Source: Phycisphaerales bacterium Planc_01
GTDB lineage: Bacteria; Planctomycetota; Phycisphaerae; Sedimentisphaerales; Anaerobacaceae
DNA: 64,000 nucleotides
Assembly (NCBI GenBank): GCA_001603075.1
Contig: LVBB01000122.1
Span: forward strand, 1-64,000
Direction of reading: 5' to 3'
This document shows, one piece after another, positions 6,005 through 39,408 of the stretch. Every line of letters begins with the position of its first letter. Position 1 is the stretch's first letter. The position numbers were made by a program, and so were the translations under genes. The notes under the pieces are model-generated. The model had not been told where the DNA came from and ran no database searches. It worked only from the letters and a program-made list of their open reading frames with translations.

Positions 6005-6198
6005 CCTTTTCTCTCCAACCTGAAATTGGGTTCGGCTAAATCTGCGCACGAAAATACCCCGTAACCCGCTTTGATAGTAAATCGGGACGGCCTTGTCAAC
6101 GAAAATATCGACATCGACGCCCCCAGGAGATGAGCCATAAATGCCGAGATTTCGGCGATTTATCCGAAAGGCGGCCTTCGCAGGCGCCCCAGGCGGGC

Positions 6199-7071
6199 TC
6201 AGAATACGATGGCCGCATAGCCCACGGCATCGCTGCCGGTCATGCCCATCGTGCGACGCATGACCTCGTTGCTGTCGGTATGGGCCAGAAGGGCCCCCCG
6301 TTCGACCCCAAGGCGGCGGGCAGCGGCGATCACCGCAGCCGCAGCCCCCGGACCGCAGGCATTGCCGTTCTCGACCGCCCCGGCCAGCAGCCGCTCCGCC
6401 TCCAACGCCAGCGCCAGATCGATAAACGCCCGGTCGTTCACCGCACGAGCCCAATGCAGCCCTGACGAGCCGGCCCCCATCGGCGTAAACCCATATCGTG
6501 GACCATAATGCGTCAAATCGGTCGAACCGATACAGACCACCGATCGGCCCGTCTGGGCCACCACGTCGGCCAGCGCCTCGCCCAACGCCAGCGCCCCCGG
6601 CGTCGGCGGCACCGTCAGCGGCAAAATCTTCGCCTGCGGAAAGAGATGCAGGACGAAGGGGATCTGTACCTCGATGCTGTGCTCGCGGCGATGGGCCGCC
6701 GGATCGATCACAACGACCCCGCGTCCGACGAGATCGTCCCGTAACGCCAGATCGACCGCGACGGTACCCAAAGGGCATTCCCACTCGGCGCTGCCGTCAT
6801 CGCCCGGCTGCCGCCCGAAATACCCGTGGGCTGTCCCGCACAGCACGAACGTCTCCACCGCCTGGCCACGATCCTGGATCGCCCGAAACACCATCGCCGC
6901 AAGCGACCCGCTGAACGCCCAGCCCGCATGTGGCACGATGCCGGCCACAATCGACGGCGGCAGAGACCTCGGCAGCTCCGGCGATTCGAGGCACGCCCGG
7001 ACTTCCGCCAGGCACTCCTCGCGATCCCCCGGATAGAACTGACCCGCAACGACCGGTCTTCGTGTTGGCAT
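6199..7071 (-). CDS. MEMO-family protein (AmmeMemoRadiSam system protein B)
   Basis: 290 residues. The MEMO fold is related to non-haem-iron dioxygenases. The conserved blocks are present: [13 protein letters not shown] at the N-terminus, [27 protein letters not shown] and STDLTHYG, which include the expected metal-ligand histidines. The ATG at 7071 is chosen because a strong AAGGAGGT stands 5 bases upstream; an in-frame ATG 12 codons earlier has none. In other genomes the gene neighbours AMMECR1 and a radical SAM gene, but neither is here. Its biochemical role is not settled. Confidence 0.88.
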
Positions 7072-7169
7072 CCGAACCTCCTTATCCCTTGCCTTCACCG
7101 TCCGCAACGGCTATCATCCGGCCGACAAACAAACAACTCTGATTGTATTTTGCACGGGGCAAAAGACAA

Positions 7170-7676
7170 ATGGTATCTCAGAAAACGCCTGCGGTCGCGA
7201 TCGTCATGGGCTCGGACAGCGACCTGAACGTGATGGAAAGCTGCGTCGAACAACTGCGCCAGTTCGGGATCGAGCCGGCGGTGCGGATCATCTCGGCCCA
7301 TCGCACCCCGCAGGTCGCCTGCGAATTCGCCGAAACCGCCGAGGCCAGGGGGGTCAGAGTGCTGATCGCCGCCGCGGGCATGGCCGCTCACCTGGCCGGC
7401 GCGCTGGCGGCCCGATCGTCGCTTCCGGTCATCGGCGTGCCCCTGGTCGGCGAGCCGGGCCTGGGTGGGATGGACGCTCTGCTCAGCACGGTTCAGATGC
7501 CCCCCGGCGTGCCCGTCGCGACGATGGCCGTCGGCAAGGCCGGCGCCAAGAACGCCGCCATCCTCGCCGTGCAGATCCTCGCTCTGCAGGATGCCGAACT
7601 GCGCCGCAAACTCGCGGAATTCCGAAGCCGGCAGGAACAGATGGTGCGCCAGAAGGATGCCTCGCTGTCGGCCTGA
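7170..7676 (+). CDS. purE: N5-carboxyaminoimidazole ribonucleotide mutase
   Basis: 168 residues, normal for class I PurE. It converts N5-CAIR to CAIR in purine biosynthesis. Signatures are VAIVMGSDSDL at the N-terminus, the SAHRTP motif and AAAGMAAHLAGALAA, followed by the PVIGVP block. The ATG at 7170 is preferred over a TTG nine codons upstream. It diverges from the MEMO-family gene with about 100 bases between them and ends 5 bases from the convergent P-domain gene. No purK is adjacent. Confidence 0.95.
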   Translation: MVSQKTPAVAIVMGSDSDLNVMESCVEQLRQFGIEPAVRIISAHRTPQVACEFAETAEARGVRVLIAAAGMAAHLAGALAARSSLPVIGVPLVGEPGLGGMDALLSTVQMPPGVPVATMAVGKAGAKNAAILAVQILALQDAELRRKLAEFRSRQEQMVRQKDASLSA

Positions 7677-7681
7677 GCCGC

Positions 7682-8311
7682 TCAGAACCGCCGCACCCAG
7701 CCCAGACAGCCGAGGCCGAGCAGCACCAACACCGTCGCCGTCGGTGCAGGTGCGGGCACGGTCGCGATGTCGGACATTGTCGTGATGATCAGACCGAACG
7801 ACTCCAGCGAGCCGGTGTCCATGTAGTAGGCGTCGTAGATCCGCAGCCGCCACAGCCCAAAGGCGTCCTCGCCATCGAAGGCCGCCAGCCCCGCCGGATC
7901 GAGCGGACGGAAGCGACCCTCGAAGGGCGCCGTGCCGTCCCGGATCGAGTTCAGCGCCTCATCGTCGAATATCGTATTGCAGTAGTCGGCCCCTTCGAAA
8001 TACTCACTGAACGGGTCGTACATGTTCAACACCACCGTAGTGCCCGACGGACTGGTCAACAGCAGTTGCAGGTCGAATACGTTCGCGTGATTCAGACTCA
8101 CGGCCACGTCCAGGTCAACGATGGTATGGTGGTCCGGGACCTCGATAACCGCATCGTCCATCCAGCCGCGCGTGGCGCTGGTGTCGGCGGGAATGGGCAG
8201 ATCGAACGATCTGCTGTAGAACACGCCCAAGCCGGCCGGGGCCGCCTTTCCCAACAGACCCAGCAACAGGCAAACGAAGGCAATGAACCTCGCGCGAACC
8301 CGCAGTCTCAT
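7682..8311 (-). CDS. Secreted P-domain protein with PEP-CTERM-like C-terminal anchor
   Basis: 209 residues from the chosen start. A basic then hydrophobic signal peptide (FIAFVCLLLGLLG) is followed by a proprotein-convertase P/Homo B domain: VIEVPDHHTIVDLDVAVSLNH, DLQLLLTSPSGTTVVL and LWRLRIYDAYYMDTGSLESFGL. The C-terminus (PAPAPTATVLVLLGLGCLGWVRRF-like tail, given here only in outline) has a proline-rich stretch, one hydrophobic segment and terminal arginines, matching a PEP-CTERM sorting signal with PAP in place of PEP. The start at 8311 has AGGAGG 9 bases upstream; ATGs 3 and 6 codons earlier are alternatives. It probably is a small surface-anchored domain protein; no protease domain is present. 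Confidence 0.8.
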   Translation of the reverse strand: MRLRVRARFIAFVCLLLGLLGKAAPAGLGVFYSRSFDLPIPADTSATRGWMDDAVIEVPDHHTIVDLDVAVSLNHANVFDLQLLLTSPSGTTVVLNMYDPFSEYFEGADYCNTIFDDEALNSIRDGTAPFEGRFRPLDPAGLAAFDGEDAFGLWRLRIYDAYYMDTGSLESFGLIITTMSDIATVPAPAPTATVLVLLGLGCLGWVRRF

Positions 8312-8492
8312 CTTGGCCATCCTCCTCACACCGCACGGCGTACAAGTCTCTCACGGGCATCCAGTCCACTGAATCGGATTATACGACAACAAGGTGGGAA
8401 AGACAAGGAAATCGGCGGCGAGGGCGGAGATTATAGGTCGGTGTGCCGATAGGACGTGAAGAACACCGGGCGGACGGCCCCCTCAAGAAACG

Positions 8493-8522
8493 AAAAAAGG
8501 GGCGACCTGTGTTCGTCGCCCC
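8493..8522 (-). terminator. Rho-independent terminator downstream of the first Q/N-rich secreted gene
   Basis: On the minus strand GGGGCGAC and GTCGCCCC pair perfectly around an 8-base loop and are followed by TTTTTT. It lies 150 bases after the stop codon at 8673 and probably ends that transcript. The rest of 8312-8672 shows no gene. Confidence 0.85.
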
Positions 8523-8672
8523 CGTGCTCATGGCCCGCGCCTGCCGGCCCTCTGAATCCGCTTGCGGCTCCGTCCATCGGCGGAGGTTCAGAGTACGATG
8601 CCAACCGGGCGGACACGAACGACCGCACCCGGGCGGGCGGCCGCTCGTCCTCGGCGAAATGCACGTGCCCGA

Positions 8673-9107
8673 TCAGAATTGACCGAGCAGACGAGCCTTT
8701 AGCAGCGCCATCTGAAGCGAACCCGTCGACGGCATCATCAGTCCCATGCCCAGGACCGACGAAGTCCCCAGCAGCGACTGGGTCCCCAGCAGCGACTGGG
8801 TGCCGAGCAGCGACTGGGTCCCGAGACCACCGATCCCAAAGAGGTTCGACATCCCCAGCAGACCTCCCAGCGGGCTCGTGCCACTCGACAGCCGAACGTT
8901 GGCCACCGTGTAACTCGAGCCGTTGCCGACCTGAGACATGTCGATCGTGAAGTTCTGCGTCGACTGCGCGTTCTGATTGCCTTGCAGAAGTTGAATTTGA
9001 TTGACTGAGCCGATATTCATTCCCTGATCCTGAAGCAGGCTGCCGAACGCGCCGGAACCGGCTAACAGGATGAGAATGGTCGAACATGTAACAACCCTTC
9101 TAACCAT
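8673..9107 (-). CDS. Secreted Q/N-rich protein, paralogue 1 of the 8.5-12 kb cluster
   Basis: 144 residues. A signal peptide ends near GSGAFGS. The mature N-terminus reads IGSVNQIQLLQGNQNAQSTQ, close to the same region of the proteins ending at 9484 and 11423. The centre has a 6-residue tandem repeat GTQSLL (three perfect units then GTSSVL), encoded by an 18-base repeat at about 8764-8827. The N/Q spacing recalls curlin repeats (Q-x-G-x-N), but no curlin domain can be claimed from sight. The ATG at 9107 has AAAGGAG 8 bases upstream. Likely an extracellular or surface matrix protein; function unknown. Confidence 0.75.
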   Translation of the reverse strand: MVRRVVTCSTILILLAGSGAFGSLLQDQGMNIGSVNQIQLLQGNQNAQSTQNFTIDMSQVGNGSSYTVANVRLSSGTSPLGGLLGMSNLFGIGGLGTQSLLGTQSLLGTQSLLGTSSVLGMGLMMPSTGSLQMALLKARLLGQF

Positions 9108-9129
9108 TCGAGGACTCCTTTCAACATGG

Positions 9130-9174
9130 GTGGTGTTCACTCCGTTGCAGACGGCCGATCACACACCGGCCGTC
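9130..9174 (-). promoter_or_regulatory. Shared leader inverted repeat, copy 1
   Basis: On the minus strand GACGGCCG and CGGCCGTC form an 8-base inverted repeat (9150-9174), followed by GAGTGAACACCAC and the ribosome binding site of the gene starting at 9107. The same arrangement stands before the genes starting at 10068 and 12010, with the repeat edge 43, 42 and 41 bases from the ATG. It could be an operator or a 5' UTR hairpin. Confidence 0.6.
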
Positions 9175-9289
9175 TCAACACACCCTTCTGTCTGAACCGC
9201 TTCATCGGGATGGCCGTGTCTGCGTCTCTTGCCTCTCCCGACGTTTGCCTTCCAATGGCCTCGTCGGAATCGGTTTGAGGTCGAAGAAG

Positions 9290-9361
9290 CCCCCTGATCG
9301 AGGCCCGCCGCGTGAGAAGAGCCTGATCACCATGAACGTTGCGGCAGGCCTGACCAGAGGG
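9290..9361. other. Structured intergenic element, copy 1
   Basis: About 72 bases closed by a terminal stem (CCCCTGATC against GACCAGAGGG). Its sequence aligns with the element at 10314-10381, sharing CGCCG-GT, GAA-GAGCCTGA and GCCTGA-CAGAGGG blocks. Several differences between the copies keep the pairing. No U tract follows on either strand. Orientation and function are unknown. Confidence 0.5.
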
Positions 9362-9483
9362 CTTCGCGGCATCCTGGCCGATCCGCCGACACAGTCCCGC
9401 AGGAAACATCCGTCAAACGACGACGGCGTTCCCGCCGAGAAGCGGCAGATTCGGCAGGACCCACGTACCATCCTACCGCTTGA

Positions 9484-10068
9484 CTACTGCAAAACCAGCG
9501 CGCCCTGCGCCTGGGAGCCGGTGACCGTCATGCCCGTCAGGACGAGAGCGGCCGAACCGGGTTCGCCCATCACGTCCGAGGTCTGCATGCCCATCACGGT
9601 CATCTTCTCATCCAGACCGCCGAGGGCATTGGCGCCGCTCTGCGCGCCGTTGAGCACGATCGTGTGCAGTGCGCTGCCGTCACCCATGCCGTTGGCCCGG
9701 GACAGACCCTGCATGGCCGAAAGATCGAGACTGCTGCCTTGCGTCTTGGTCTCGACGCAATCCCCGATGTTCTGCCACTGGCCTCCGGCAATACCCAGAT
9801 TCTGGCTGGCGCTGACCGCCGCGCACTCGCCCCAGGCGTTCAGGGCCTGGCCGATCGAGCCGAAGAACGACTCACCGGCGATGCCCACGATGCTTTGCTG
9901 ATTGTCGACGACCAGATTCTGAAGAGACTGGGCCGTCTGGCTGCCTTGATCCAACTGAATGGCGTTCGTCGCCCCGATGGCGGTGATCTGGTCGTGCAGT
10001 GCGCCCGCAAACGCGCCGCCGGCGACGAGGCCGACAACGATCATGGAAGATGCAATTGCTTTGAACAT
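9484..10068 (-). CDS. Secreted Q/N-rich protein, paralogue 2
   Basis: 194 residues with a signal peptide ending at GGAFA. It is a clear paralogue of the 195-residue protein ending at 11423: both have LHDQ/LHEQ, TNAIQL/TNALQL, QNLVVDN, a central Cys pair, and C-terminal ALHTIVLNGAQ/ALHTVVLNAGQ and MGMQTS blocks. The richness in Q, N, G and A with regular polar spacing suggests a beta-rich fibre or matrix component, which is inference. AGGAGTCTGAACG precedes the ATG. The leader inverted repeat lies 42 bases upstream. No terminator with a U tract was found after it. Confidence 0.75.
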   Translation of the reverse strand: MFKAIASSMIVVGLVAGGAFAGALHDQITAIGATNAIQLDQGSQTAQSLQNLVVDNQQSIVGIAGESFFGSIGQALNAWGECAAVSASQNLGIAGGQWQNIGDCVETKTQGSSLDLSAMQGLSRANGMGDGSALHTIVLNGAQSGANALGGLDEKMTVMGMQTSDVMGEPGSAALVLTGMTVTGSQAQGALVLQ

Positions 10069-10087
10069 CGTTCAGACTCCTTCTGCT

Positions 10088-10134
10088 ACGTGTTGTTCAC
10101 TCTGTTTTAGATCGCCGATATCCGTTCGGCGATC
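10088..10134 (-). promoter_or_regulatory. Shared leader inverted repeat, copy 2
   Basis: GATCGCCGA, 7 bases, TCGGCGATC: a perfect 9-7-9 inverted repeat at 10110-10134, followed on the minus strand by AAAACAGAGTGAACAACAC and then the ribosome binding site of the gene starting at 10068. Its closest match is at 12051-12075. Confidence 0.65.
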
Positions 10135-10313
10135 GCGATCCATGACGAAAAAGCGTTCCTGATCTCCCGAGAACCAACCTCCCTTCTCTTCCCCTCCTCG
10201 TTGTGCTGGCGAAATCCCATCACGTCTCGGCGGACTTGCCCGCCATACGACGGACCCGTCGCCCGGTCATGCCGGACGCCCGACTCCGTGTTGCAGGGAC
10301 AAAGCCCTCTGAT

Positions 10314-10381
10314 GCAGGCACGCCGTGTCCCGAAGGAGCCTGAACCAACGCGGTCTGTTCCGGCAAGCCTGATCAGAGGGC
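10314..10381. other. Structured intergenic element, copy 2
   Basis: The ends pair as GCCCTCTGAT with ATCAGAGGGC. Inside, AGGCACGCCG can pair with CGGCAAGCCT with one mismatch, leaving a branched centre. It aligns with 9290-9361. The surrounding gap 10069-10623 has no credible gene. Confidence 0.5.
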
Positions 10382-10550
10382 CCTTAGGTCATTCTGTGGA
10401 CAAGAACGAGGTTGTCGCTTTGCTAACACCCAGAAGCTAAGAAGCCACGCATCAGCGTCCTCTCCAGACCCGTCCGATGAGCCCTCCGTAAGAGCGATTG
10501 CCAATTCCCCTGCGATTCACGGCCCGGGACACGGGCGACGGCGGGCCCTC

Positions 10551-10594
10551 CGGCAGCCAAGCCTCGGACCAATCCGAATGCGGCCTGGCTGCCG
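10551..10594 (-). other. Long GC-rich hairpin after the gene ending at 10624
   Basis: CGGCAGCCA pairs with TGGCTGCCG, continues as GCC/GGC after a mismatch, and encloses a second small hairpin (TCGGA-CCAA-TCCGA). It sits 30 bases past the stop codon at 10624. No U tract follows, so it may stabilise the 3' end of the mRNA rather than terminate transcription. Confidence 0.55.
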
Positions 10595-10623
10595 AACTAC
10601 GGCCCGACAGAAGTCTCATGAGA

Positions 10624-11190
10624 CTAATACTGGCCGGCGCTGAAATTCGCGCCGCCAGCGACCTGCATGCCGCCGCCAGGACCGCCGCCGACCGCATCAT
10701 ACAGGCTCACGCCGATCCCTTGCACGTTGGCGCTGCCGCCCCACGGGGTGAACGTCAACTGCGTCTGCACGCCCAGGAACGTCTGGAGACCGAGGGCCGA
10801 ACCCTGCCCGCCGATCTTGGTCACATCCTGTGTCAGCACGGCGCCGAGATCCTGGTCCTGGTAGCCCACGGCCGGAATCTGCGTCTGGCCGGCCCAGCCG
10901 ATCGCGTTCTGATCGACGTTGAACAGACCGACCATCCCCACCGCGCCGGCGCTCTGAAGCAGCGCCGCCGTCGTGCCCTGGTACGCCGTCGTGTGCGTCG
11001 GAGCGATCGTACCGAGCTGCGAGAGATCCATCGTCAACGCACTGATGTTGCCCGCGGCCCCGTCCCCGAGGACGGTCACGCCGTTGGTCCCGAGCAGAGC
11101 CCCACCTTGGGTCTGAAACAGGGCCAACGCCGGTGTGGCGGCCGCCATGAGCAGCAGCAGCGCAACCGATACTGCGAATCCTTTGAACAT
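10624..11190 (-). CDS. Secreted Gly/Ala/Gln-rich protein of the same cluster
   Basis: 188 residues with a signal peptide ending at TPALA. After it comes FQTQGGALLGTNGVTVLGDGAAGNISALTMDLSQLG, which matches in outline the pattern of paralogue 1 (NQIQLLQG ... TIDMSQVG) and suggests distant relationship. The C-terminus is glycine-rich (GGGPGGGMQVAGG). AAAAGGAG precedes the ATG. Its leader has a different inverted repeat (GACCTC with GAGGTC near 11250-11275) and lacks the GAGTGAACAACAC box. Function is unknown; an extracellular structural role is the simplest guess. Confidence 0.7.
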   Translation of the reverse strand: MFKGFAVSVALLLLMAAATPALALFQTQGGALLGTNGVTVLGDGAAGNISALTMDLSQLGTIAPTHTTAYQGTTAALLQSAGAVGMVGLFNVDQNAIGWAGQTQIPAVGYQDQDLGAVLTQDVTKIGGQGSALGLQTFLGVQTQLTFTPWGGSANVQGIGVSLYDAVGGGPGGGMQVAGGANFSAGQY

Positions 11191-11322
11191 TGTGCGAACT
11201 CCTTTTCTTGGTTCCTTCGATTGTCCTCACTTCACCGGAGACCTCGATCCGATCACGCCGCGGAGGTCCTGCCTCCACCGGCATCCGTGCGATCCGACCG
11301 AAACGACCCGGCACAGTGCAAT

Positions 11323-11379
11323 GGGGAGCCCCGGGGCCCATAGCCCTGTCACGATCCAATGGTCGCTTCAGGGCTCCCC
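11323..11379. other. Intergenic stem-loop between two secreted genes
   Basis: GGGGAGCCC and GGGCTCCCC form a perfect 9-base stem with a 39-base loop region. It lies 44 bases past the stop codon of the gene ending at 11423 on the minus strand. No U tract is seen. Confidence 0.5.
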
Positions 11380-11422
11380 GCCCACGCATCGAGCGACACC
11401 GTCGTCCGACGGGTTCCTTCGA

Positions 11423-12010
11423 TTACAGGGCCTTCTGCTGCTGAACCGTCTGCACCGTCATCGTGCCGCCCACCGAACCCTGCGCGCCGGGCTCGCCGTA
11501 CAGGGTCGAGGTCTGCATACCCATGATGGTCGCGCTCTCGTTCATCTGTCCGGAGGCGTTGTTGGCGTTCTGGCCGGCGTTCAGCACGACCGTGTGCAGC
11601 GCGTCGCCGTAGCCGGCGCCGTTCGTCTTGCTCAGCAACTGGCCGACGTCAAGAGTCAGGCTCTGCGCCTGCAGTTTGGGACCGACGCCCTCGGCCACCG
11701 CCTGCTCCTGCTGGTTGCCGATGAGGAGCTCCTGGAGCACGGCCACGTTGCCGCAGTAGCCCCAAGCGGTCGCCGCTTCGCCGACCGACGCGAACAGGTT
11801 CTGGCTGGCCAGCGTCCCGCAGATGCCCGTGGCGCACTGCGAATTGTCAACGACCAGGTTCTGCTGCGAGCTGGCCTGCTGATCGCCCTGCAGAAGCTGC
11901 AGTGCATTGGTCAAACCGATTCCGGTGAACTGCTCGTGGAGCAACTGAGCGGAAGCGCCCGCGCCAATCACCAAGACGAACACCATCGAAGCTGCAATAA
12001 CTTTCGACAT
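11423..12010 (-). CDS. Secreted Q/N-rich protein, paralogue 3
   Basis: 195 residues; the signal peptide ends at GAGASA. It is the close paralogue of the 194-residue protein ending at 9484, sharing GIGLTNALQLLQGDQQ-type and QNLVVDN blocks, two Cys around residue 60, ALHTVVLNAGQNANN and MGMQTS. The C-terminal tail is TVQTVQQQKAL. Glutamine and asparagine are very frequent. The ATG at 12010 has AAGGAGTCTGAAA upstream and the leader inverted repeat 41 bases before it. A fibre-forming or biofilm role is inferred only from composition and spacing. Confidence 0.75.
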   Translation of the reverse strand: MSKVIAASMVFVLVIGAGASAQLLHEQFTGIGLTNALQLLQGDQQASSQQNLVVDNSQCATGICGTLASQNLFASVGEAATAWGYCGNVAVLQELLIGNQQEQAVAEGVGPKLQAQSLTLDVGQLLSKTNGAGYGDALHTVVLNAGQNANNASGQMNESATIMGMQTSTLYGEPGAQGSVGGTMTVQTVQQQKAL

Positions 12011-12027
12011 TTTCAGACTCCTTCTAT

Positions 12028-12075
12028 TCCGTGTTGTTCACTCCTTTTTGGACCGCCGACGACGTATCGGCGATC
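12028..12075 (-). promoter_or_regulatory. Shared leader inverted repeat, copy 3
   Basis: GATCGCCGA, 7 bases, TCGGCGGTC at 12051-12075 (one G:T pair), followed by CCAAAAAGGAGTGAACAACAC and the ribosome binding site of the gene starting at 12010. The match to copy 2 extends over both the repeat and the downstream box. Confidence 0.65.
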
Positions 12076-12216
12076 ACAACACACGTGTACTGCCAATCCC
12101 CTTTGCCCGATCCGTGGGCCCATCACCTCCTTTCCCCCCCCGGGACTTCTCAACCCAGACTTCCTGTCCACACTGTTTCTCCGGAGACAATCATTCGCCA
12201 CACCGTGGTCGATCGA

Positions 12217-13416
12217 CTACGGAAACGCCATGCGATAGAGATCCTGGCTGACGTCCACTCCAGCCACTCGGTCCGGCGTCGTTTCCGGCGACGGGACATA
12301 CTCATTGGCTGCCATCGTGGCCGCCTGCGTCGGAGCGGCCGCCACGGGCATCGCCCCGGCCTGCGGGGCCGTCCCATTCGGATTCGACACGGCGGCCGCC
12401 ACCAGCGGACGCACTCGGATCCGGTCGTACAACGCCGCGGGAATCCGCCGGCGACCCAGCATCTCCGGGCAATACCGATAGCCCGTCGCGCTCATCACCG
12501 CTTCGCCCTTGCCCTCGGTCACGCCTTTCGTCCTTCCGCCCAGCAGACTCAGCGAGTAGTTCGTCTGACTGTACCCGCCGCCCCCGCTGAGGCTCGTCGT
12601 CGCGCCGACGGTCACGCCCTTCATTCCACCCGAGATCAGCAGGATGTCCACATCCCATGGCAGGGCCTCGGCGACCGCCGCGTTGTAGACCTGGTCCCAG
12701 TTGCGATCGTGGTCGCCTTCAAGGCTCATGCGCCCCACGTACGCGTAGCCTTCCTCTTCCAGCCGCAGCGGATCGATGTAGCTGTCGATGAAGACCAGAA
12801 GGGGCTTGCCATCGGGCCGACGGTCACGAATCAGCGAATTGGCGATGTCGAATCCCCGCCCGTGGTGCGACTTGTCCGGGCCGCCGAACAGCTTGCCGAC
12901 CCCGTTGAGCACCCCGCCGAGCAGCTTGATCGGACCGGTATACGGCAGCGACCGAAGGATCCCGCGAACCTCGCGCATATCGTCTTCATTGGCCGGATCG
13001 AACACGCGCTCGTACACCCGGTCGTGCGAGGTCGGACCGTTGGGGAAGTATGCCTTGATCGTCCCCCAGCCGCCGTGGTTCCACATCGGCAGATACGGCG
13101 GATATGTCGTCAGCGGCGGAATCCGCGACTTGTAGTTTGAATTGGTCGTCGGGCTGAACAGGAGCACCGACGTCGAGCCGCTCGTCGCCCCCTCCGCGTA
13201 CGATGACGCCGAACCGCCCCCCGCCCAGGCGACGGAATCCGAGGTCGCCGACGAAACGGCATTGCCGCCGCCGATCGCCTGCGTGTTCTGGATCTGAGTC
13301 GGATCGCTCTGGACCGTCGTGTTCATGAAGTAACTGCTGCCCGTAGCCTGGCCCGGCGCAGCCAGAGAGGTGAGCACAACGGCGGCAATCAATACGGCAC
13401 TGAGTCTTTTCATCAT
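12217..13416 (-). CDS. Secreted protein of unknown function, cluster end gene
   Basis: 399 residues. A signal peptide ends at GQATG. The next 60 residues are rich in S, A, G and T (AWAGGGSASSYAEGATSGST). A central region has mixed composition (about 95-260) with LLISGGMKGVTVGATTSLSGGG after it, and the C-terminal 90 residues are Ala/Pro-rich. AAGGAG precedes two adjacent ATG codons (13416 and 13413). I recognise no family. It is the first and largest gene of the secreted cluster and could be an assembly or accessory factor for the small paralogues, which is inference from position only. Confidence 0.65.
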   Translation of the reverse strand: MMKRLSAVLIAAVVLTSLAAPGQATGSSYFMNTTVQSDPTQIQNTQAIGGGNAVSSATSDSVAWAGGGSASSYAEGATSGSTSVLLFSPTTNSNYKSRIPPLTTYPPYLPMWNHGGWGTIKAYFPNGPTSHDRVYERVFDPANEDDMREVRGILRSLPYTGPIKLLGGVLNGVGKLFGGPDKSHHGRGFDIANSLIRDRRPDGKPLLVFIDSYIDPLRLEEEGYAYVGRMSLEGDHDRNWDQVYNAAVAEALPWDVDILLISGGMKGVTVGATTSLSGGGGYSQTNYSLSLLGGRTKGVTEGKGEAVMSATGYRYCPEMLGRRRIPAALYDRIRVRPLVAAAVSNPNGTAPQAGAMPVAAAPTQAATMAANEYVPSPETTPDRVAGVDVSQDLYRMAFP

Positions 13417-14341: not shown

Positions 14342-14904
14342 CGTAGGGTGTGCACCGCACACCTCTTCCCGCATCGCCCGACCGGCCGCGGGCAAATCAC
14401 AAGTAGGATGGGCTTTGGCCCATGCGGAATTGAATGAGGGCAGAGTGGCAAGTTTCAATTGGCAAGTGGGAAGCTCCGCTCTCCAGCCTACAGCCTCCGG
14501 CCCGTGGAACCGAAAACTGCCAACTGGCAACTGACAACTGATGACCGGCAACCATCGTTCGCAGTGGGCTCGCAAGAGCCTCGCCCCGGCGACTGCACGC
14601 CGAACAGGCGGATCTCGCTCCAGCGGAACGGGCGTAGAATGGGCCTTGGCCCATGCGGGACTTTCCCTTCGTTCTTTTCACTCATTTTTTCGAAAAGGGC
14701 ATCCACATCGGACGGCCAGCGTTCGCCGTAGGAACAGATAGGCGGGAGTACGTGGCATGGAGACCGAACGCGGAAGATGCCAGGGACGATGGGAGGCCGG
14801 AGAGTACACCGGCGGCCTCTCGCGACGCGGACACGTGCGCCGGTGCGCACAAAGCGATATACCGCAATGGTTTATCCACAAGCACGGGCTCCGCCCGCGC
14901 CGGC
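14342..14904 (+). repeat. Duplicated intergenic block, copy A
   Basis: About 560 bases nearly identical to 17751-18345. It holds a GTAGGGTGTGCA palindrome (14343-14363), two GTAGRATGGGC-TTGGCCCATG palindromes (14403-14427, 14634-14659) and several TCGTATCTCGTGAAGCG-type micro-repeats just before it. It ends directly before the ribosome binding site of the pseudopilin gene at 14920, so it probably includes that gene's promoter. Confidence 0.85.
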
Positions 14905-14919
14905 CCAAGGAGGTGCTGT

Positions 14920-15849
14920 ATGGCCAATAGCCCGACGAAATGGCGATCCGGCCCAATCATCAATTCCAGGGCCTTTACCTTGATCGAACTGCTGGTGGTC
15001 ATTGCGGTGATCGCGCTGCTGATGGCGATCCTGATCCCGGCCCTGCACCGGGCCCGCAACCAGGCCCGCACCGTGGCCTGCCAGTCCAACCTGCGCCAGT
15101 GGGCGATGACCCTGGCCGCCTACACCGAGGCCCATGAGGGGCGTTTTCCCTCCGACCCCACCGGCCACTCGGCCTTGTGGCTGTTGCGCGGGACATTCGT
15201 CGGTGCCAGCGACCCCAATGCAGACCGCGCGGCCCTTCACGGGTTCCACACAAAAGGCATCGCCCTGTGCCCGATGGCGACCCGACCCTCCGTCACCGGC
15301 ACCCACGGGCGCTTCAGTGAGGTCTTCATCGCTTCCGGCGGAGTGCGAGGAGTGCGGATCGAGGGGTACGCCGGGTGGCCCACCGAGGCCTGGCAGGTGC
15401 TTACGCCGACCCCTCCCTTTATCGGCAGTTACGGATACAACCACGCTCTATTCCACGGGTTTCGAGCCGAGACCATCTTCGGCCCTGAGGGGCCTTTGGG
15501 GACTTTACCGAACCTGAACGTTTTCTCCATGCGAGAGCACACGAGCGTCCCCGTCATGCTCGATGCGACGGCGCCGGTGTCCAATCGGAGCATGACCGAC
15601 CCCGGCGCGTTGACTCCAATGTGGCGCACAGGCATAGCTGGGGGCTTGAACATGTTCCTCGTGGACCGCCGCCATGGCCTGGCCGTCAACGGCATGTTCC
15701 TCGACTGGTCGGTGCGCAAGGTGGGACTGAAGGAACTCTGGACCCTAAAGTGGGCCTCCGACTTCGACCGGGCGAACCGCTGGACCAAGGCCGGCGGCGT
15801 CCGCCCCGAAGACTGGCCCAAATGGATGAAAGAGTGCAGGGACTATTGA
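14920..15849 (+). CDS. Pseudopilin-like protein, H-X9-D type
   Basis: 309 residues. An 18-residue leader is followed by the prepilin motif [20 protein letters not shown], then a coiled N-terminal helix with QARTVACQSNLRQ. Near the C-terminus, [19 protein letters not shown] fits the planctomycete prepilin-associated H-X9-DG motif with W in place of G. A type IV pilus/type II secretion peptidase would cleave before the Phe. AAGGAGGT 5 bases upstream fixes the start at 14920. The next gene is a near copy, so the pair arose by tandem duplication. Such proteins are numerous in planctomycetes and their role is unclear. Confidence 0.85.
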   Translation: MANSPTKWRSGPIINSRAFTLIELLVVIAVIALLMAILIPALHRARNQARTVACQSNLRQWAMTLAAYTEAHEGRFPSDPTGHSALWLLRGTFVGASDPNADRAALHGFHTKGIALCPMATRPSVTGTHGRFSEVFIASGGVRGVRIEGYAGWPTEAWQVLTPTPPFIGSYGYNHALFHGFRAETIFGPEGPLGTLPNLNVFSMREHTSVPVMLDATAPVSNRSMTDPGALTPMWRTGIAGGLNMFLVDRRHGLAVNGMFLDWSVRKVGLKELWTLKWASDFDRANRWTKAGGVRPEDWPKWMKECRDY

Positions 15850-15894
15850 TGCGTATTTCGTGAAGCGCGAAGCGATTGGATGGAAGTGGACAGG

Positions 15895-16971
15895 ATGAAC
15901 TGTTGTGAGGATGCCATTGTGACCGGAAGGGCGCCGAGCCAACGACTTGGCCATCCCGAGCCCAGCAACCGCCCCGATCGTCATCCCGAGCGCAGTCGAG
16001 GGATCTGGCTGCGAATGGAGCGCACGTCCGGGCTATGGCCAGACCTTTCGACTTCGCTGCGCTTCGCTCAAGGTGACAGACGGGGACGTGGCTACGCTTT
16101 TACACTGATCGAACTGCTGGTGGTCATTGCGGTGATTGCGCTGCTGATGGCCATTCTGATCCCGGCGCTGCAGCGGGCCCGCAACCAGGCACGCAGCGTG
16201 GTCTGCCAGTCCAATCTGCGCCAGTGGGCGATGACCTTGGCCGCCTACACCGAGGCCCATGAGGGGCGTTTTCCCTCCGACCCCACCGGCCACTCGGCCT
16301 TGTGGCTGTTGCGCGGCACGTTCATCGGCGACACGGACCCCAATGCGGATCGGGGAGCCGTCCACGGGTTCCACACAAAGGGCATCGCCCTGTGCCCGAT
16401 GGCGACCCGACCCTCCGTCACCGGCACCCACGGGCGCTTCAGTGAGATCTTCATCGCTTCCGGCGGAGTGCGAGGAGTGCGGATTGAGGGGTACCCCGGG
16501 TGGGTCAACGAGGCTTGGCAGGTCCATACGCCGAGTCCCCCGTTTTTCGGCAGTTACGGATACAACCACGCTCTATTCCACGGGTTTCGAGCCGAGACCA
16601 TCTTCGGCCCTGAGGGGCCTTTGGGGACTTTACCGAACCTGAACGTTTTCTCCATGCGAGAGCACGCGAGCATCCCCGTCATGCTCGACGCGACGCAGCC
16701 GATCTCGGGCCGGGCCATGATTGAGCCCGGCGCATTGGTTCCAATGGTAGGCGTAAGCGGCGGCCCGGGCCTGGGAATGTTCCTCATGGACCGGCATGGC
16801 CTGGCCGTCAACGGGATGTTCCTCGACTGGTCGGTGCGCAAGGTGGGACTGAAGGAGCTCTATACCCTGAAGTGGGCCTCCGACTTCGACCGCGCCAACC
16901 GCTGGACCAAAGCCGGCGGCGTTCAGCCCGAAGATTGGCCCAAATGGATGAAAGAGTGCAGGGACTATTAG
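15895..16971 (+). CDS. Pseudopilin-like protein, tandem duplicate with repeat-derived leader
   Basis: 358 residues from ATG 15895; ATG 15880 is an alternative. From the FTLIELLVV motif onwards it is almost identical to the preceding protein, including [22 protein letters not shown] and the C-terminal H-X9-D-W motif. The leader before the prepilin motif is about 70 residues, far longer than the usual 5-30, and much of it is the translation of the dispersed repeat at 15980-16079 (HPERSRGIW). The true start may be inside or after the repeat, but no ribosome binding site was found there. Either the leader is tolerated or the gene is damaged at its 5' end. Confidence 0.7.
15980..16079. repeat. Dispersed CCGAGCGCAGTCGAGG-type repeat, inverted pair
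   Basis: GTCATCCCGAGCGCAGTCGA at 15980 is answered by an inverted, diverged partner ending in TCAAGGTGACAG at 16079. The same family is at 53600-53702 and 60404-60495. Here it lies inside the open frame of the pseudopilin gene. Confidence 0.8.
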
Positions 16972-19363: not shown

Positions 19364-19730
19364 CCCGACAAAACCCCGAGCCGTCCCACTAATCAATCAT
19401 CAATCATCCATATTCAATCCGAGGGCCTTCACCCTGATCGAGCTGCTGGTGGTCATTGCGGTGATCGCGCTGCTGATGGCGCTGCTGGTCCCGGCCCTGC
19501 GCGCCGCCCGCGAGCAGGCCCGCCGGGCCGTCTGCCTCTCCAACCTCCGCCAACTCACGACGGCTTGGCTCCTCTACGCTTACGAAAACGACGGTTGGCT
19601 CGTCACCGGCACAAGTGATGGTACTGGGGAATTTAAGGTGTCAGGTACTTTTTTCGCATTGGTCTCAGAGGTTTCAGAATGGCCTGCTCGAAGCGCCGGC
19701 GGCGGACAACTACCCCGCCCAGAGAGGTGA
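19353..19730 (+). pseudogene. Truncated pseudopilin gene with internal deletion
   Basis: Starts like its neighbours ([46 protein letters not shown]) but ends after 125 residues in unrelated sequence. The break lies near 19615, where a stretch reading AATTTAAGGTGTCAGGTAC with a run of T follows. It lacks the whole middle and the C-terminal H-X9-D region. The first 65 codons match the next gene at 19736 closely, so this appears to be a tandem copy that lost its body through an insertion/deletion. The short product could still be made and processed, but is unlikely to work. Confidence 0.7.
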
Positions 19731-19735
19731 TCCCA

Positions 19736-20680
19736 ATGGCCACTAACCCGACAAAATACCGATCCGGCCCAATCATCAATCATCAATTAGCAATCATCAA
19801 TTCCAGGGCCTTCACCCTGATCGAACTGCTGGTGGTGATCGCGGTGATCGCGCTGCTGATGGCGCTATTGGTCCCGGCCCTCCGCGCCGCCCGCGAGCAG
19901 GCCCGCCGGGCCGTCTGCCTGAGCAACCTCCGCCAACTCACACTCGCCTGGGTGACCTACGCGGAGGCATACGACGGGTGGTTGGTCGACGGGTTTGCGG
20001 GTGGCGAACAGCAAGTTTATGGACAGATACGCGAAAGCTGGCTGGGACAGGCCTTCCTTTCCGCAGACAACAGGTCACAGTTGCTGCAGGACCCCAAGAA
20101 GGGCCTGCTCTGGCCGTATCTGGGGAACGTCGACGTCTATCTCTGTCCGGCGGCTGCGCCCGCCCACCTCGTCACATACGAAATTATCTCGGCGGCGAAT
20201 GCTTCGGACTTGAATGGGGTCTACACGCCTGCCGATGGGTATCTCCAGAGCATTGCGTCGGGAAAGCGCCCGCCCAATCGCGTCGGCAAGACGGTTCTCC
20301 GCCTGATGCGACTATCGGACATCATCAGCCCTGGCCCATCCGAGCGTCTGGTGTTTGTGGATGTGGGCCAATTCGTCAACACCGGATTCTTCGTTCCGTA
20401 TTTCGGACCGCGATGGCACTGGATAGATCCTCCGCCGATCCACCATAGCGCCGGCGCTACGCTGGCATTCGCCGACGGACACGCCGAACATTGGAGGTGG
20501 AAGGGGCATGAGACCGTCAGCATACCCCGCGTATCGTACCCCGTAGCGCGTGACCTATTCAACGAAGCCCTCGATCAGTCCGCATGCACTCCTGAGACCG
20601 AAGATGGTCTCCGCGACTTACAGCGCATGCAGCGAGGCGCCTGGGGCCGACTGGGCTATTCGAATGACGGAGATGATTAG
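19736..20680 (+). CDS. Pseudopilin-like protein, canonical H-X9-DG type
   Basis: 314 residues. A 24-residue leader precedes [27 protein letters not shown]-type prepilin sequence. The C-terminal part has [17 protein letters not shown], a canonical H-X9-DG motif. Cys pairs and [10 protein letters not shown] fit the disulfide-bearing periplasmic domain of this family. GAGAGGTGATCCCA precedes ATG 19736. About 45 bases after it, GGAGGTGATGCCTATG followed by a stop within two codons looks like the decayed start of one more copy. Confidence 0.85.
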
Positions 20681-23767: not shown

Positions 23768-24193
23768 GCGCCGGGCCACAAGCCGGGCGGTATTCGGGGG
23801 GGCCAGCTTACTCATTTCGGGGGGGCTTGGCGGGTTCGATTTCGTCGTGGCATCGGGGTTGGTGCTTGCTGGCTCGGGGGAAGCCGAAGGGCGGGCGGCC
23901 TGCGGCCGCGTTGTGCGCGAAGTGTGAAGCGTCCGGCGTCGGACGCCGTGCGGAGTTACGTCAGGCTGGAGGCTGGAGGTGGTGGATTCGGTATCTCGAG
24001 CCTGCGGTCTACGGGCTCGGGCCTGTCGTTCCATTCCGTCGGCCAGACGGCTTGGTGGGCGGTGCCCACCCTACGGGATATGCCCCATCGACTTCGCTCG
24101 GGGCAGGTTCTTACGAGCGCATGAGAACGGCGGCGCGGGTCGCGAGGGGCCTGCGCCGCCGGAGCGAATCGTGATGCGTGTCGGTCGGGATCG
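23768..24193. other. Intergenic region with palindromic repeat
   Basis: No credible gene. It contains GGTGGGC-GGT-GCCCACCCTAC at 24054-24074, which on the minus strand is a GTAGGG-bordered palindrome like those at 14343 and 51099, and a GAAGTGTGAAGCGTC micro-repeat near 23917. Confidence 0.6.
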
Positions 24194-25561
24194 CTACTGG
24201 ATTTCGACGATGGAGTTGAGTTCGCCGTAGGGGTTCAGCTCGGTGCGTTCGTTGTAGGGGTCCTGCTGCCACTGGCCGTCGACGACGAGGCGGTAGCGGT
24301 AGGTGCCGTGGGGCAGCTTGAGCTTGGCCTGCCAGACGCCGCTGTCGCCGACGCGTTCCATGCACGTGGTGGCCGGCTGCCAGTTGTTGAAGTCGCCGGC
24401 GATCTGGACGCTGGATGCCCTGGGGTAGAGCGTGACGAAGACGAGGGCGTCGCGGATCTGGCTGACGCCGTAGTAGTCCGACAGCTTCGCGTCGAGCGCC
24501 GGCACAACCTCGTTGAACGACTCGGCGGGCGCCTCGACAGTCGCGCCGGCCGAAGCCGGAAGCGCGATGGCCTCTTCTTCGAGTTCCAGCGTCTCGACCA
24601 TGGGGGCGGTCGCCGGCTCGATCGTTGCCGGGCTCACCTGCGGCTCCGGCTGGACCGACGGCGCTGACGCCGGCTGAGGTGCCGACAGCGGCGGCGACTG
24701 CGTCGTCCGAAGCAGCTCCGTCGCGCTGGCCCCGATCGATTCGAGCTGGTCGGCCAGCGTGTCCACCAGACGCTTGCTCTTCGTCACCGAACGTTCCTCG
24801 ACTCCGATCAGTTCCTGCGCCAGCGACCGGAAATCCTGCTGCCCCTTGCTCGCCGGATCGTACTCGTTGATCGGCTGCCCGAAGCTCGACGCTTCTTTGA
24901 TGCGGGTATTGAAGTTAATAACTGTCTTGAACATCCGGTCTGAGAAATGGGATCGCAGTTCGGCGAGGATCTCGCGGGCCATCTTGGTGCGGATGTCGTA
25001 CATGCTGGCGAGGACGCGGACGGAGACCTGCTGCTGGCACCGTTTGCAGAGGATGCTGAGCGTTTCGAGCTGCTTGCTGAGCCCGTGCAGCGCGAAGTAG
25101 CCGGTCTCGACGGGCACGACCACGTCGGTGGCCGCCCGCAGCGCGTTGAACGTCAGCAGGCTCACCGCCGGCGGGCAGTCGATCACCACGAAATCATAGT
25201 CGCCCGTCACCCCGTCGAGCACCTTCTTCAGGCAGCACTCGCGCTCGGGAATTCCGGCCATCTGCTGCTCGAACGCCGACAGGTCGATGCTCGCCGGCGC
25301 CAGCTCCAGCCGCTCGCCGATCTGCCAGAGGATCTCGGTCAATCGCATCGGCTCGCTGCGGCTCTCGCTGATCAGCACGTCGTAAATGCTCTGCTCGATC
25401 TGCTCCTCCGGCACCGCCAACCCCACCGCACAGTGCGACTGCGGGTCCATATCCACCAGCAGCACCTTCTTGTCCAGCGACGCCAAGGCACTGGCCAGGT
25501 TGATCGACACCGTCGTCTTGCCGCAACCGCCCTTCTGATTGACCACCGCAATCGTTCTCAT
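24194..25561 (-). CDS. ParA/Soj-type ATPase fused to a C-terminal glycogen-binding-like (CBM48/early-set) domain
   Basis: 455 residues. Residues 1-255 are a ParA ATPase: deviant Walker A KGGCGKTT (10-17), LLVDMDPQ and VVIDCPPA. A Pro/Ala-rich linker covers about 290-355. The last 90 residues read VTLYPRASSVQIAGDFNNWQP ... GVWQAKLKLPHGTYRYRLVVDG, the signature of the CBM48/AMPK-beta carbohydrate-binding fold. ParA proteins position DNA or protein cargo on the nucleoid; the added domain suggests binding to glycogen or another glucan, or a plain protein interaction. No parB is adjacent. The start at 25561 places the P-loop at the normal distance; GAGAGACGGAGACAG lies upstream. Confidence 0.85.
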   Translation of the reverse strand: MRTIAVVNQKGGCGKTTVSINLASALASLDKKVLLVDMDPQSHCAVGLAVPEEQIEQSIYDVLISESRSEPMRLTEILWQIGERLELAPASIDLSAFEQQMAGIPERECCLKKVLDGVTGDYDFVVIDCPPAVSLLTFNALRAATDVVVPVETGYFALHGLSKQLETLSILCKRCQQQVSVRVLASMYDIRTKMAREILAELRSHFSDRMFKTVINFNTRIKEASSFGQPINEYDPASKGQQDFRSLAQELIGVEERSVTKSKRLVDTLADQLESIGASATELLRTTQSPPLSAPQPASAPSVQPEPQVSPATIEPATAPMVETLELEEEAIALPASAGATVEAPAESFNEVVPALDAKLSDYYGVSQIRDALVFVTLYPRASSVQIAGDFNNWQPATTCMERVGDSGVWQAKLKLPHGTYRYRLVVDGQWQQDPYNERTELNPYGELNSIVEIQ

Positions 25562-26377
25562 CTCTGTCTCCGTCTCTCACCTTCGATATTGTCGTCCATG
25601 ACCCGAGGGTTGCGGCGACACGCCTTCAGAAACCCGCTTAATAGCATTGATGGGCCGGATAATAACGCATATTCTTTCATCGGCAAGGGTTTCCTCAAAA
25701 CTTTACCCTTTTATGGGACCGGCCCATAAAAAGACCCGCCAACTTCACAATCCACCCCCTTTATCGGCACTGATAATCCCGTTTTTCGCCCCGCCCTGCC
25801 GCCCGCCGCGCCGGCGTCGCACGCCAAAGCGCCCCAAGCGCCCGGCCCGCCGCCACGCCGCACACGACGTTAAGACTCTTATTATTATAGGACGCCCACG
25901 CCCACCCAACACCTGCGGCCCGCAAGCCCACCGGCCCGCGAATTCCCTGTTGCGTGTGGTCCCATCCCACCTCCGCCGCCATCATACGACACCCCCCAAC
26001 CCAACGTCAACCCCCTCCTCGCCAGGGAAAATCCCCTGTGCCCCCGCACCACAATCGATCCCGCCAAGCCACTTGGCATGCCGCGCAGCCGCGAGGCCCT
26101 TCGCTACGGGATTTGCCGTTGAATATCAGCGTCTTCCATGCCATACTGCTCGCGGGAAGCCAATACGACTCAGGCTTGGGTGCGTCCCAGGCAAGATACC
26201 ATCGCGGGAGGCTGCGTGCCTTCCGCATGTCTTTGCACCGCCCGCGATCGTCGTGCGGCATGCGACCCGCTGATTGCTTACAGGAATTCTCGTACGAGAA
26301 ATCTATCGTACGATAGATTGTGTAAGGTATGGAAAGCGGGCGCAAGCGGTGTGATCAGGCTCACCCTCCTGGGATGG
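25562..26377. other. Intergenic region between ParA-like gene and methyltransferase operon, with palindromes
   Basis: No credible gene in 815 bases. TTTTATGGG-ACCGG-CCCATAAAA (25709-25731) is a perfect stem followed by A/T and could be a terminator-like or regulatory hairpin. At 26287-26300 and 26300-26319 lie two adjacent perfect palindromes, TTCTCGTACGAGAA and AATCTATCGTACGATAGATT, both centred on CGTACG. GC falls sharply to the right of this point. Confidence 0.6.
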
Positions 26378-27946
26378 TCAAATCGCGCTTGGCCACTGAG
26401 AGCAGATTGGCTGCGCCCCACGTCGATTCCGCATGCCGTTCAGCATCGTCAGGACGTCTCTAACAACACTGTCGGCTATTCCAGCCTCTCTGACGATGAG
26501 TTTGGTGGCCTCAATGGATGCCAGTTCCTTGTCGCCTTCCGCAATGTGGCGCAGGATACTATGGTATTCTTTGCGGGGAATCGCCCTCTCCCCGGCAAAG
26601 ACGAGGGCTTGCTTCAGTACCTTGGGTTCCACCTTCATCAGCCCATTTCCGTAGTGCCGTGCCGCAAGTTCGAGCGAGAATTGCCCGAAAAAGGAGAGAA
26701 GTGAGAGTTGAATCCATTTCCGTTTTGCCTCTGCAGTCTCTCTGAAGGAGATCGCATGAAGAGCATTTGTACACCTGTATCCGTCTGGGTTTAGAATCAT
26801 GTATGGAAAAGTAGACACCCTGTACGTGAAGAACGCATCAGGGACTCTGCCCGGTTGGACATCGTACCATGCTCTAGACCGGCCCTCACGCCTGTGGCAA
26901 TGGCTACGCTTGTGGAGGCTTCGTCTGACTCCTCGCGACACGTATTTCTCTCTCTTCGCGGTCATTCTGTTGAATTGGATGAGTTTCTTGTCGGGTGTCT
27001 TGCCAGCAAGAACTTGCCCTAGGTCTTCGACCGTCGTAAGGATAGGTACCATAGCCTTGTCAGAGAAGCCAAAACTGATTGCTTCTTCGTTGCGGAGTAT
27101 GAAGTAGTCGTTTGCGCCAGTAACGATGCCAATGCTGATATCGGCGTGTTCCTCGAGCGGGACAAAGCCAGCCGCCCCGAGTTTCTCAAGGATTCCCACC
27201 GACCGGGCGTCTGCGCTGGCCAAAACGTTGGAAGAACTCCATGCTTCCAGCGGCAGATGCCGAAACGCAACGTGTCCGGAACAAGTATCTGAGTGCGCAA
27301 TCTGAACGGTCGCGGCTTGTCTGCCATATTCCCTGAGCCAGACGAGGCATACGCGTTTGACAGTATCTGGGAAATGCGCTCCCTCCAGGACAAGTACCTC
27401 AATCTGGCCAAAACTGTCCGCAAGCCACTCTCTCACTCTCTGCGCATATTCTGCTTCCAGGAATGACCAGGGCAATACGGCCGCTATGGCCCCATCCTCG
27501 CGAAGGTGCCTCACGCACTTCAGCAAGAAGTAGCCCCAGAGATCAAGATTACGGGAAAAGCCAAGGGACTCTGCATGGTCCGCGTGATACTTGCTCCTGG
27601 CTTCAAGAGGGATCTTCGCGCTCTGCACGTACGGAGGATTAGTCAAAATCAAATCGTGCTTCTCTTTTACCTCCACGCTAAAGAAATCCGAGTGAATGAA
27701 CTGAATCTGTGGATCGATCTCTTCAGGCGCGAACCTATCGTACCCTAGGAGTCGAGGCCTTCGCAGACCGGGAGAATGCTCGGCACATTCCAGAGCCGCC
27801 CGCAGCAGTGACCCATTACCACAGGCTGGATCGAGGATGGAGATTCCATGAGTGATATTACTTCGGCTCGCAAGCAGTCTCGCCAGCGGACGAGGCGTGT
27901 AGAAGATGCCGTTACTTCTGATTCGCGTGTTCTCTTCAGCAGGCAT
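26378..27946 (-). CDS. Adenine-specific DNA methyltransferase, Eco57I/N6-Mtase type
   Basis: 522 residues from the chosen start. It has SNGIFYTPRPLARLL at the N-terminus, S-adenosylmethionine motif I DPACGNG (39-45) and the catalytic NPPY motif (103-106, LTNPPYVQS), as in gamma-type N6-adenine methylases such as the methylase part of Eco57I. The C-terminal half (about 250-522) probably is a target-recognition region; no PD-(D/E)XK nuclease motif is evident. ATGs at 27973 and 27994 are alternatives; 27946 gives an 11-base overlap with the gene upstream. Last gene of a four-gene operon, so it may protect host DNA or mark the system's target. Confidence 0.82.
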   Translation of the reverse strand: MPAEENTRIRSNGIFYTPRPLARLLASRSNITHGISILDPACGNGSLLRAALECAEHSPGLRRPRLLGYDRFAPEEIDPQIQFIHSDFFSVEVKEKHDLILTNPPYVQSAKIPLEARSKYHADHAESLGFSRNLDLWGYFLLKCVRHLREDGAIAAVLPWSFLEAEYAQRVREWLADSFGQIEVLVLEGAHFPDTVKRVCLVWLREYGRQAATVQIAHSDTCSGHVAFRHLPLEAWSSSNVLASADARSVGILEKLGAAGFVPLEEHADISIGIVTGANDYFILRNEEAISFGFSDKAMVPILTTVEDLGQVLAGKTPDKKLIQFNRMTAKREKYVSRGVRRSLHKRSHCHRREGRSRAWYDVQPGRVPDAFFTYRVSTFPYMILNPDGYRCTNALHAISFRETAEAKRKWIQLSLLSFFGQFSLELAARHYGNGLMKVEPKVLKQALVFAGERAIPRKEYHSILRHIAEGDKELASIEATKLIVREAGIADSVVRDVLTMLNGMRNRRGAQPICSQWPSAI

Positions 27947-28628: not shown

Positions 28629-28635
28629 GCCAAAA

Positions 28636-39336: not shown

Positions 39337-39408
39337 ATGTAACATGGAGGCTTTCTCAAGTGACTTGATATAGAGATCACAGGGAAACACTTATCCTCGC
39401 TCATAAGG

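Follow-up and report, generated by a model that had tools for sequence, protein, structure and literature searches.

The first 64,000 nucleotides of contig LVBB01000122.1 of Phycisphaerales bacterium Planc_01 (the window) contain, at 8.6–13.4 kb, a cluster of five genes for secreted-looking proteins, which we call A to E. All five lie on the minus strand in the order A-B-C-D-E, in a single direction, and their open reading frames have the ends given by an earlier, sequence-only reading of this DNA. Gene A (12217..13416) encodes a protein of 399 amino acids with a signal-peptide-like start, the partner protein of the system described here. Gene B (11423..12010, 195 amino acids) is the first of the tandem B-type genes and codes for a secreted-looking β-repeat protein with predicted glutamine (Gln, Q) ladders. 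It is followed by C (10624..11190, 188 amino acids), a divergent fourth paralogue, by D (9484..10068, 194 amino acids), a paralogue of B, and by E (8673..9107, 144 amino acids), a short paralogue which keeps the start of the B sequence and continues with LLGTQS repeats. We placed the start of E at the ATG at position 9107, before which stands GAAAGGAGT. Ribosome-binding-type sites (AAGGAG-like) are found before A, B, C and D and before this ATG. The signal peptides of the cluster proteins were judged by eye from the sequence.

By sequence comparison, B, C, D and E are members of one family, while A is a different protein: hhalign detected no relation between A and B apart from the signal peptide. 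Blastp comparisons within the cluster were made with the low-complexity filter switched off and composition correction switched on. B and D share 49% identity from end to end (E-value 4e-51), and protein E shares its first part with B (7e-13) and D (5e-11). These three had been named as paralogues by the sequence-only reading, and the shared blocks that it listed are present (TNALQL/TNAIQL, QNLVVDN, ALHTVVLN/ALHTIVLN, MGMQTS); C had been overlooked. The earlier observation is confirmed, and its extent is greater than had been described. The duplication seems to have taken in the leader: directly upstream of the two start codons, a stretch of 65 bases shows 82% identity between B and D. The LLGTQS units, which lie in the C-terminal half of E, are encoded by an 18-bp tandem repeat (3.3 copies, 8764–8822) which is not seen in B, C or D. 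Elsewhere in the genome there is a fifth relative, which lies on contig C139 and shares 37% identity with B, and a sixth, weak one on contig C17 (E-value 4e-8), a secreted-looking frame of 177 amino acids. Glutamine and asparagine together account for 14.5–21% of the mature B, C, D and C139 proteins. The genes are under purifying selection, with ratios of non-synonymous to synonymous substitution rates (dN/dS) of 0.13–0.39 in 17 comparisons, three of which concern the C139 copy.

Protein A consists of a variable N-terminal tail rich in Ser, Gly, Asn and Gln, a strongly conserved core, a variable linker and a conserved C-terminal motif (family consensus GVxVSRELYxMAGF). In an alignment of 27 of the 28 A frames (L047, truncated at the end of its contig, was omitted), the other 26 rows are 46–93% identical to the window copy and share long invariant stretches in the core; A is the better-conserved member of the A/B pair. 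That the cluster belongs to no family of known type, as had been proposed, was borne out. No Pfam family is common to more than one member of A or B. The single-member Pfam matches (best E-value 0.007), the best NCBIfam match of the window proteins and the A alignment (0.006, one A member), the PHROGs matches of four window proteins (0.011 and 0.024, both of unknown function) and the one match among PDB sequences (0.69) were all taken as chance, leaving A without a credible relative in Pfam, NCBIfam or the PDB sequences.

The occurrence of A and B is closely coupled. A profile of A matches 31 of 161 genomes of the order, and a five-row profile of B matches 30, all in the same family-level group. 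Both are found together in 28 of the 161 genomes (Fisher p 1e-25, the related genomes not being independent). Counted from A, 28 of the 31 genomes have a B-type gene directly downstream and in the same orientation. We use this count because our set of 28 loci, comprising 27 A genomes and the public contig L036, was chosen for a B match, which biases its 28/28 adjacency. Three genomes with A gave no B match at the threshold (G368, G344 and G376); in G368, a B gene directly after A was found with a larger profile (E-value 6e-48). Genome G373 has only fragments of A and B, on different contigs, the locus being broken by contig ends. Over the 28 loci, the gap between A and B ranges from −65 to 337 bp. 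At a profile E-value of ≤ 0.01, the loci carry at least one B-type gene in 17 cases, at least two in six, at least three in one and at least four in four; those with three or four all belong to the window's genus, where L036 was placed by likeness. From the phylum, 294 evenly drawn genomes, among them few relatives, were searched: B as single query matched one (its own genome), the A profile one and the B profile two. A phylum match of B in G127 (E-value 3e-6) was rejected as a signal-peptide match; it covers the N-terminus of a frame which by eye carries a PEP-CTERM-like tail. Judged by gene order and co-occurrence, A and B are a gene module, which in the genomes searched is restricted to a single family within one order of the planctomycetes.

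The B family was aligned in 49 rows, from which E-type proteins and frames truncated at the end of a contig (L056, L067) were left out; loci L039, L040, L051 and L070 duplicate the contigs of L034, L035, L038 and L037, and each pair entered the counts a single time. A profile built from the mature regions of ten B/D-type proteins, with no C among them, detected three of six C-type sequences at E < 1e-3 (best 1e-6), compared with none of six reversed C-type sequences and none of 980 shuffled ones (20 shuffles of each of the 49 sequences). The B/D profile of the window's genus (ten sequences) detected 19 of the 29 remaining rows, of which 27 are from other genera, and all four C139-type rows at the same threshold; among the controls, it detected two of the 49 reversed sequences and none of the 980 shuffled ones. 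Reversed sequences thus do score: the profile of the remaining rows places 33 of 49 below 1e-3 (best 9e-18), the C profile four and the B profile two. It follows that part of the profile score is periodic pattern and not descent. The scoring of reversed sequences fits a near-palindromic hairpin repeat, yet warns that the profile scores hold the period. One might therefore regard the likeness of the B proteins as convergence of low-complexity Gly/Gln/Ala sequences, since the period alone scores. We consider this very improbable. Forward scores lie far above reversed ones with the same remaining-rows profile (B-types: 10 of 10 forward, best 2e-30, and 6 of 10 reversed, best 1e-8; C-types: best 2e-29 against 4e-8), none of the composition shuffles fell below 1e-3, and the independent neighbour A marks the same loci.

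The glutamines of B recur with a period of 23 residues, Q-x7-Q-x14, which is clearest in the middle of the protein. Analyses of Gln columns, autocorrelation and faces were made with 46 of the 49 rows (without L072, L046:7315 and L059), motif counts with 48. In the pooled autocorrelation of Q, lag 23 has a z of 13.7, lag 8 of 11.4 and lag 31 of 10.1. The pattern Q-x7-Q-x14-Q-x7-Q occurs at 55 places in 33 of the 48 sequences, compared with a mean of 0.84 and a maximum of 5 in 200 shuffle sets. With one sequence per genus, it is found in 10 of 11 (16 places; shuffle mean 0.20, maximum 3), a count reached by none of 2000 shuffle sets. In B numbering, the middle strands of the model described below have Gln pairs eight apart at 70/78 (83% and 87% of rows) and 93/101 (98%, 100%) in strands 3 and 4, and at 116/124 (87%, 74%) and 139/147 (70%, 100%) in the next two; further Gln columns are 103, 114 and 145. 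We regard the 23-residue period as a firm property of the B sequences.

An AlphaFold2 model of B, computed with 16 related sequences as input, shows a signal helix followed by eight antiparallel strands of 17–20 residues (about 18), joined as hairpins. Its predicted local distance difference test score (pLDDT) is 80.1 and its predicted template modelling score 0.61; the five models span a mean pLDDT of 69 to 80. The sequence-only reading had named stacked β-solenoids as the fold to look for by structure prediction. A repetitive β fold is indeed predicted, in the form of an antiparallel meander. Neither a known non-fibre family nor a non-repetitive fold emerged from the searches and the model.

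When the turns of the model are taken as register, the Q–Q score over shifts of −5 to +5 peaks within two residues in seven of seven hairpins: exactly on register in hairpins 1, 2, 5, 6 and 7, within two residues in 3 and 4, with a second near-equal peak in hairpin 5 (1.48 and 1.46). Neighbouring strands are thus predicted to bring their Gln columns face to face in each of the seven hairpins and so to form Gln ladders that cross the sheet; on every one of the four middle strands, two conserved Gln eight apart would lie on one charge-poor face. The ladders rest on this predicted register, and the strand topology is itself a prediction. Of 62 row-events of insertion after residue 22, 53 fall between strands and nine inside, though 140 of the 173 positions are inside strands, and Gly is conserved at most turns (41–44, 84/87, 131/133, 154, 172/175). 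We assigned the faces of B from the Q columns. The Q face consists of 22% Gln, followed by Gly, Ala, Val and Leu, and has 4.4% charged residues (D+E+K+R); the other face is made of Gly, Ser, Thr and Ala with 12.3% charged residues.

Eight long antiparallel strands behind a signal-peptide-like start could also belong to an outer-membrane β-barrel, or to a hairpin donor for an oligomeric pore which A gates or assembles. In a Foldseek search with the B model, the 26 matches below 0.001 are pore-forming proteins and not amyloids, the best being the pore sheets of the membrane attack complex, perforin-2, perforin and pleurotolysin, and a VIA structure search gave Z values up to 7.3. The Foldseek matches, however, have template modelling (TM) scores of 0.21–0.34 and root mean square deviations (rmsd) above 35 Å, a local hairpin likeness, and no VIA match reaches Z 8. 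In both searches, the model was matched mainly to open sheets, with some barrels (Z about 4 in VIA). The open sheets of MACPF and gasdermin pores resemble the B model in their long antiparallel hairpins, but TM is at most 0.39, B has no sequence match to solved structures and no lipid-facing hydrophobic face, and the likeness is generic. Two matches below 1e-3 among BFVD viral structures (TM 0.30 and 0.36, rmsd about 35 Å, no names) were set aside. Neither face is lipid-like, the non-Q face being Gly/Ser/Thr/Ala with 12% charged residues; aromatic residues are few (4–11 in each of four mature proteins counted), and neither B nor D ends in one. The face composition is more in keeping with a hydrogen-bonded core that is poor in charge than with a membrane barrel, and we consider a barrel or pore improbable.

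A stronger alternative is that the B proteins are soluble, non-polymerising secreted β-repeat proteins, for example binding carbohydrates or surfaces, with A as an enzyme or chaperone and with Gln ladders that only stabilise the monomer. Gln/Asn ladders occur in monomeric β-helices too. The model is fairly confident as a monomer (pLDDT 80), and 17 of the 28 loci have one B-type gene at the threshold used. On the other hand, several features suit self-association better: the composition is rich in Gly, Gln, Ala and Ser, the Q face is charge-poor, the predicted sheet matches open rather than closed sheets, and 11 of the 28 loci have tandem paralogues. We judge soluble B proteins to be rather unlikely, while taking the possibility seriously.

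A spacing of Q, G and N reminiscent of curlin repeats had been noted for the cluster. Curlin repeats have a mean length of 23 ± 5 amino acids and form a parallel β-solenoid with Gln ladders at positions 7 and 18, according to the parts of PMC10192328 available to us, and the minimal curlin motif is given as X6QXGX2NX10 in a passage of PMC3521004. The repeat length agrees (lag 23), but the motif is at or below chance in the B family: X6QXGX2NX10 occurs at three places in the 48 sequences compared with 6.7 in shuffles, and X6QX10Q at 91 compared with 92 expected. Curlin_rpt (PF07012) matches none of the 49 members at E ≤ 0.1. Neither this family nor CsgE or CsgF is matched at E ≤ 1 in the organism's own genome (97.4% complete, 162 contigs), whereas the E. 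coli control matches each. The frame at 45614–46237 (minus strand), described earlier as a CsgG/Lpo-like lipoprotein, does match Pfam CsgG (23.0 bits, cut-off 20.8), but only at profile positions 56–95 of 210 and about 32 kb from the cluster; it is lipoprotein-like. The Pfam CsgG model also takes in many non-curli proteins, as stated in the portion of PMC3521004 consulted. This family (PF03783) is found in 112 of the 161 genomes, with or without A. Among the matches listed (to an E-value of about 0.0017), none adjoins A; the nearest is about 11 kb away, in G344, and the other places are on different contigs from A or far off. Besides the partial match at 45.6 kb, the matches in the organism's own genome are on contigs C95, C14 and C20. 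A CsgG-like identity for A was rejected, as hhalign of the A alignment with CsgG-like proteins of the relatives detected no profile similarity, with probabilities of 0.1% and 0.4%.

The B family and curli have in common a secreted repeat protein in which the repeat spans about 23 residues and Gln ladders occupy a face or core poor in charge, often with several paralogues. They differ in Gln spacing, which is 11 + 12 in curlin and 8 + 15 in B, and in predicted topology: about one turn per 22–23 residues and antiparallel strands of about 18 residues in the B model, and in curlin a parallel solenoid to which each repeat contributes two short strands. They also differ in the partner protein and in the lack of Curlin_rpt, CsgE or CsgF matches. 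The earlier remark on spacing thus holds for the length of the repeat and fails for the family. Curli membership of the B system is not supported by these comparisons, and a true curli system, with B as a divergent CsgA or CsgB and A as a CsgG/CsgF-type factor, is highly improbable in spite of the shared repeat length and ladders.

CsgA and FapC are both described, in the sections seen of PMC12822426, as β-solenoids stabilised by imperfect repeats with conserved Asn/Gln networks. FapC, a secreted fibre protein, resembles B in such repeats and networks (PMC12822426, same sections), but FapC of strain UK4 has three Greek-key repeats joined by linkers, whereas the repeats of B are contiguous. No Fap family is among the Pfam matches of B; no search was aimed at FapF or FapB-E by name. 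By analogy, the Fap and curli amyloids appear to be the nearest functional counterpart of the B system.

Our best reading is that A and the B-type genes encode a secreted, curli-like but apparently curli-unrelated cross-β structural system with a dedicated partner. For a polymerising structural system as such, we consider the balance to be about even. A more specific proposal is made tentatively, and we hold it to be possible rather than likely: a new class of functional amyloid, made of contiguous units of about 23 residues, each forming one long antiparallel strand of about 18 residues, with a pair of Gln eight residues apart in the central strands, and served by the dedicated secreted partner A. 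In such an amyloid, which we regard with the same reserve, the units would build a wide antiparallel cross-β ribbon with Gln ladders. In the structural system of our best reading, B would be exported by Sec, would fold by stacking of the predicted strands and would polymerise edge to edge, or face to face via the Gln/aliphatic face, into a cross-β fibre or sheet, either outside the cell or in its envelope. B, C and D may be alternative major subunits, with the truncated E as a minor or capping one. A would be a partner dedicated to assembly, nucleation or anchoring; its tail, rich in Ser, Asn and Gln, would touch the polymer, and its conserved core would be in contact with the envelope. The module would then work like the curli or Fap amyloid; none of our tests relates it to curli by descent.

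Besides the scores of reversed sequences and the Foldseek matches to pore-forming proteins, several observations weigh against the structural system as proposed. B is present but A unmatched in two genomes (G298 and G374), in G344 and G376 no B was found near A at E ≤ 1 in the stretch searched, the C139 relative has no A beside it, and there is the weak relative on C17. When the Q profile of the alignment is permuted, 10 of 2000 permutations reach the observed peak, and in strands 1, 2, 7 and 8 the two-Gln pattern is partial (25, 27, 58, 160, 166, 190, 192). In five rows, residue 99, which lies midway along a predicted strand, is followed by an insertion; this would be better accommodated if each 23 residues formed two shorter strands of a solenoid. 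Gly conserved in at least 50% of rows inside strands (32, 74, 99, 137, 143) would also be better tolerated by such a shorter-strand solenoid. The mean hydropathy of the two faces is nearly equal (0.16 for the Q face, −0.05 for the other). No export channel for B was found by the searches described, and the predicted structure of A is unusable (pLDDT 29).

A ParA/BcsQ-like ATPase (PF13614) fused to a glycogen-binding AMPK1_CBM/CBM48 domain, an unusual fusion, is encoded in the window at 24194–25561 (minus strand). Homologues lie upstream of A, typically about 2 kb off, in 18 of 31 loci from nine genera. We rejected it as part of the module. It is matched in 130 of the 161 genomes (E ≤ 1e-60), in many of them over its full length, and lies on other contigs than A in several A genomes (for instance G345, G346 and G314); we therefore treat it as shared synteny and not as a component. 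Three frames with prepilin-like N-termini (14653–15849, 15880–16971 and 19679–20680, plus strand), two of them near-duplicates, sit between A and this fusion; the distance from A to the fusion is much smaller in other genera. In G344 (L140), A (6115–7473) is followed by a frame which by eye resembles glycogen phosphorylase (7675–10206), and B was not detected there.

Just downstream of E, at 7682–8329 (minus strand), lies the gene for a P-domain protein (PF01483) with a PEP-CTERM-like tail. A cluster of P-domain/PEP-CTERM-like frames is found near the module in 11 loci from four genera. A stem-loop with a T tail after E (8498..8523, minus strand) is terminator-like and a possible end of the cluster; with four such sites in the region compared with 3.4 expected, this site alone is no evidence. 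G+C content is lower at 24001–32000 and 36001–40000 (0.60, 0.54 and 0.57 in 4-kb steps) than elsewhere in the window (0.63–0.65).

In open-licence PubMed Central, our literature searches revealed, among the papers listed, no work describing the A/B family by title or abstract opening, which is weak evidence of absence, and showed no curli-like system in the planctomycetes phylum. A word search in the main text of a comparative paper on Phycisphaerae genomes (PMC11266412) gave no hit for curli, fimbria, pili, matrix or adhes. Curli and Fap, the two functional amyloids described in PMC10192328 and PMC12822426, are β-solenoids with their own accessory factors, as far as the parts of these papers available to us go. 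The module of A and B is real, conserved and unannotated, and plausibly a new Gln-ladder fibre or matrix system. A and B are two defined protein families open to direct expression and tests. If the proposed system is true, a Gln-ladder family of curlin length but with another register, predicted topology and partner would represent a separate route to a secreted Gln-ladder material.

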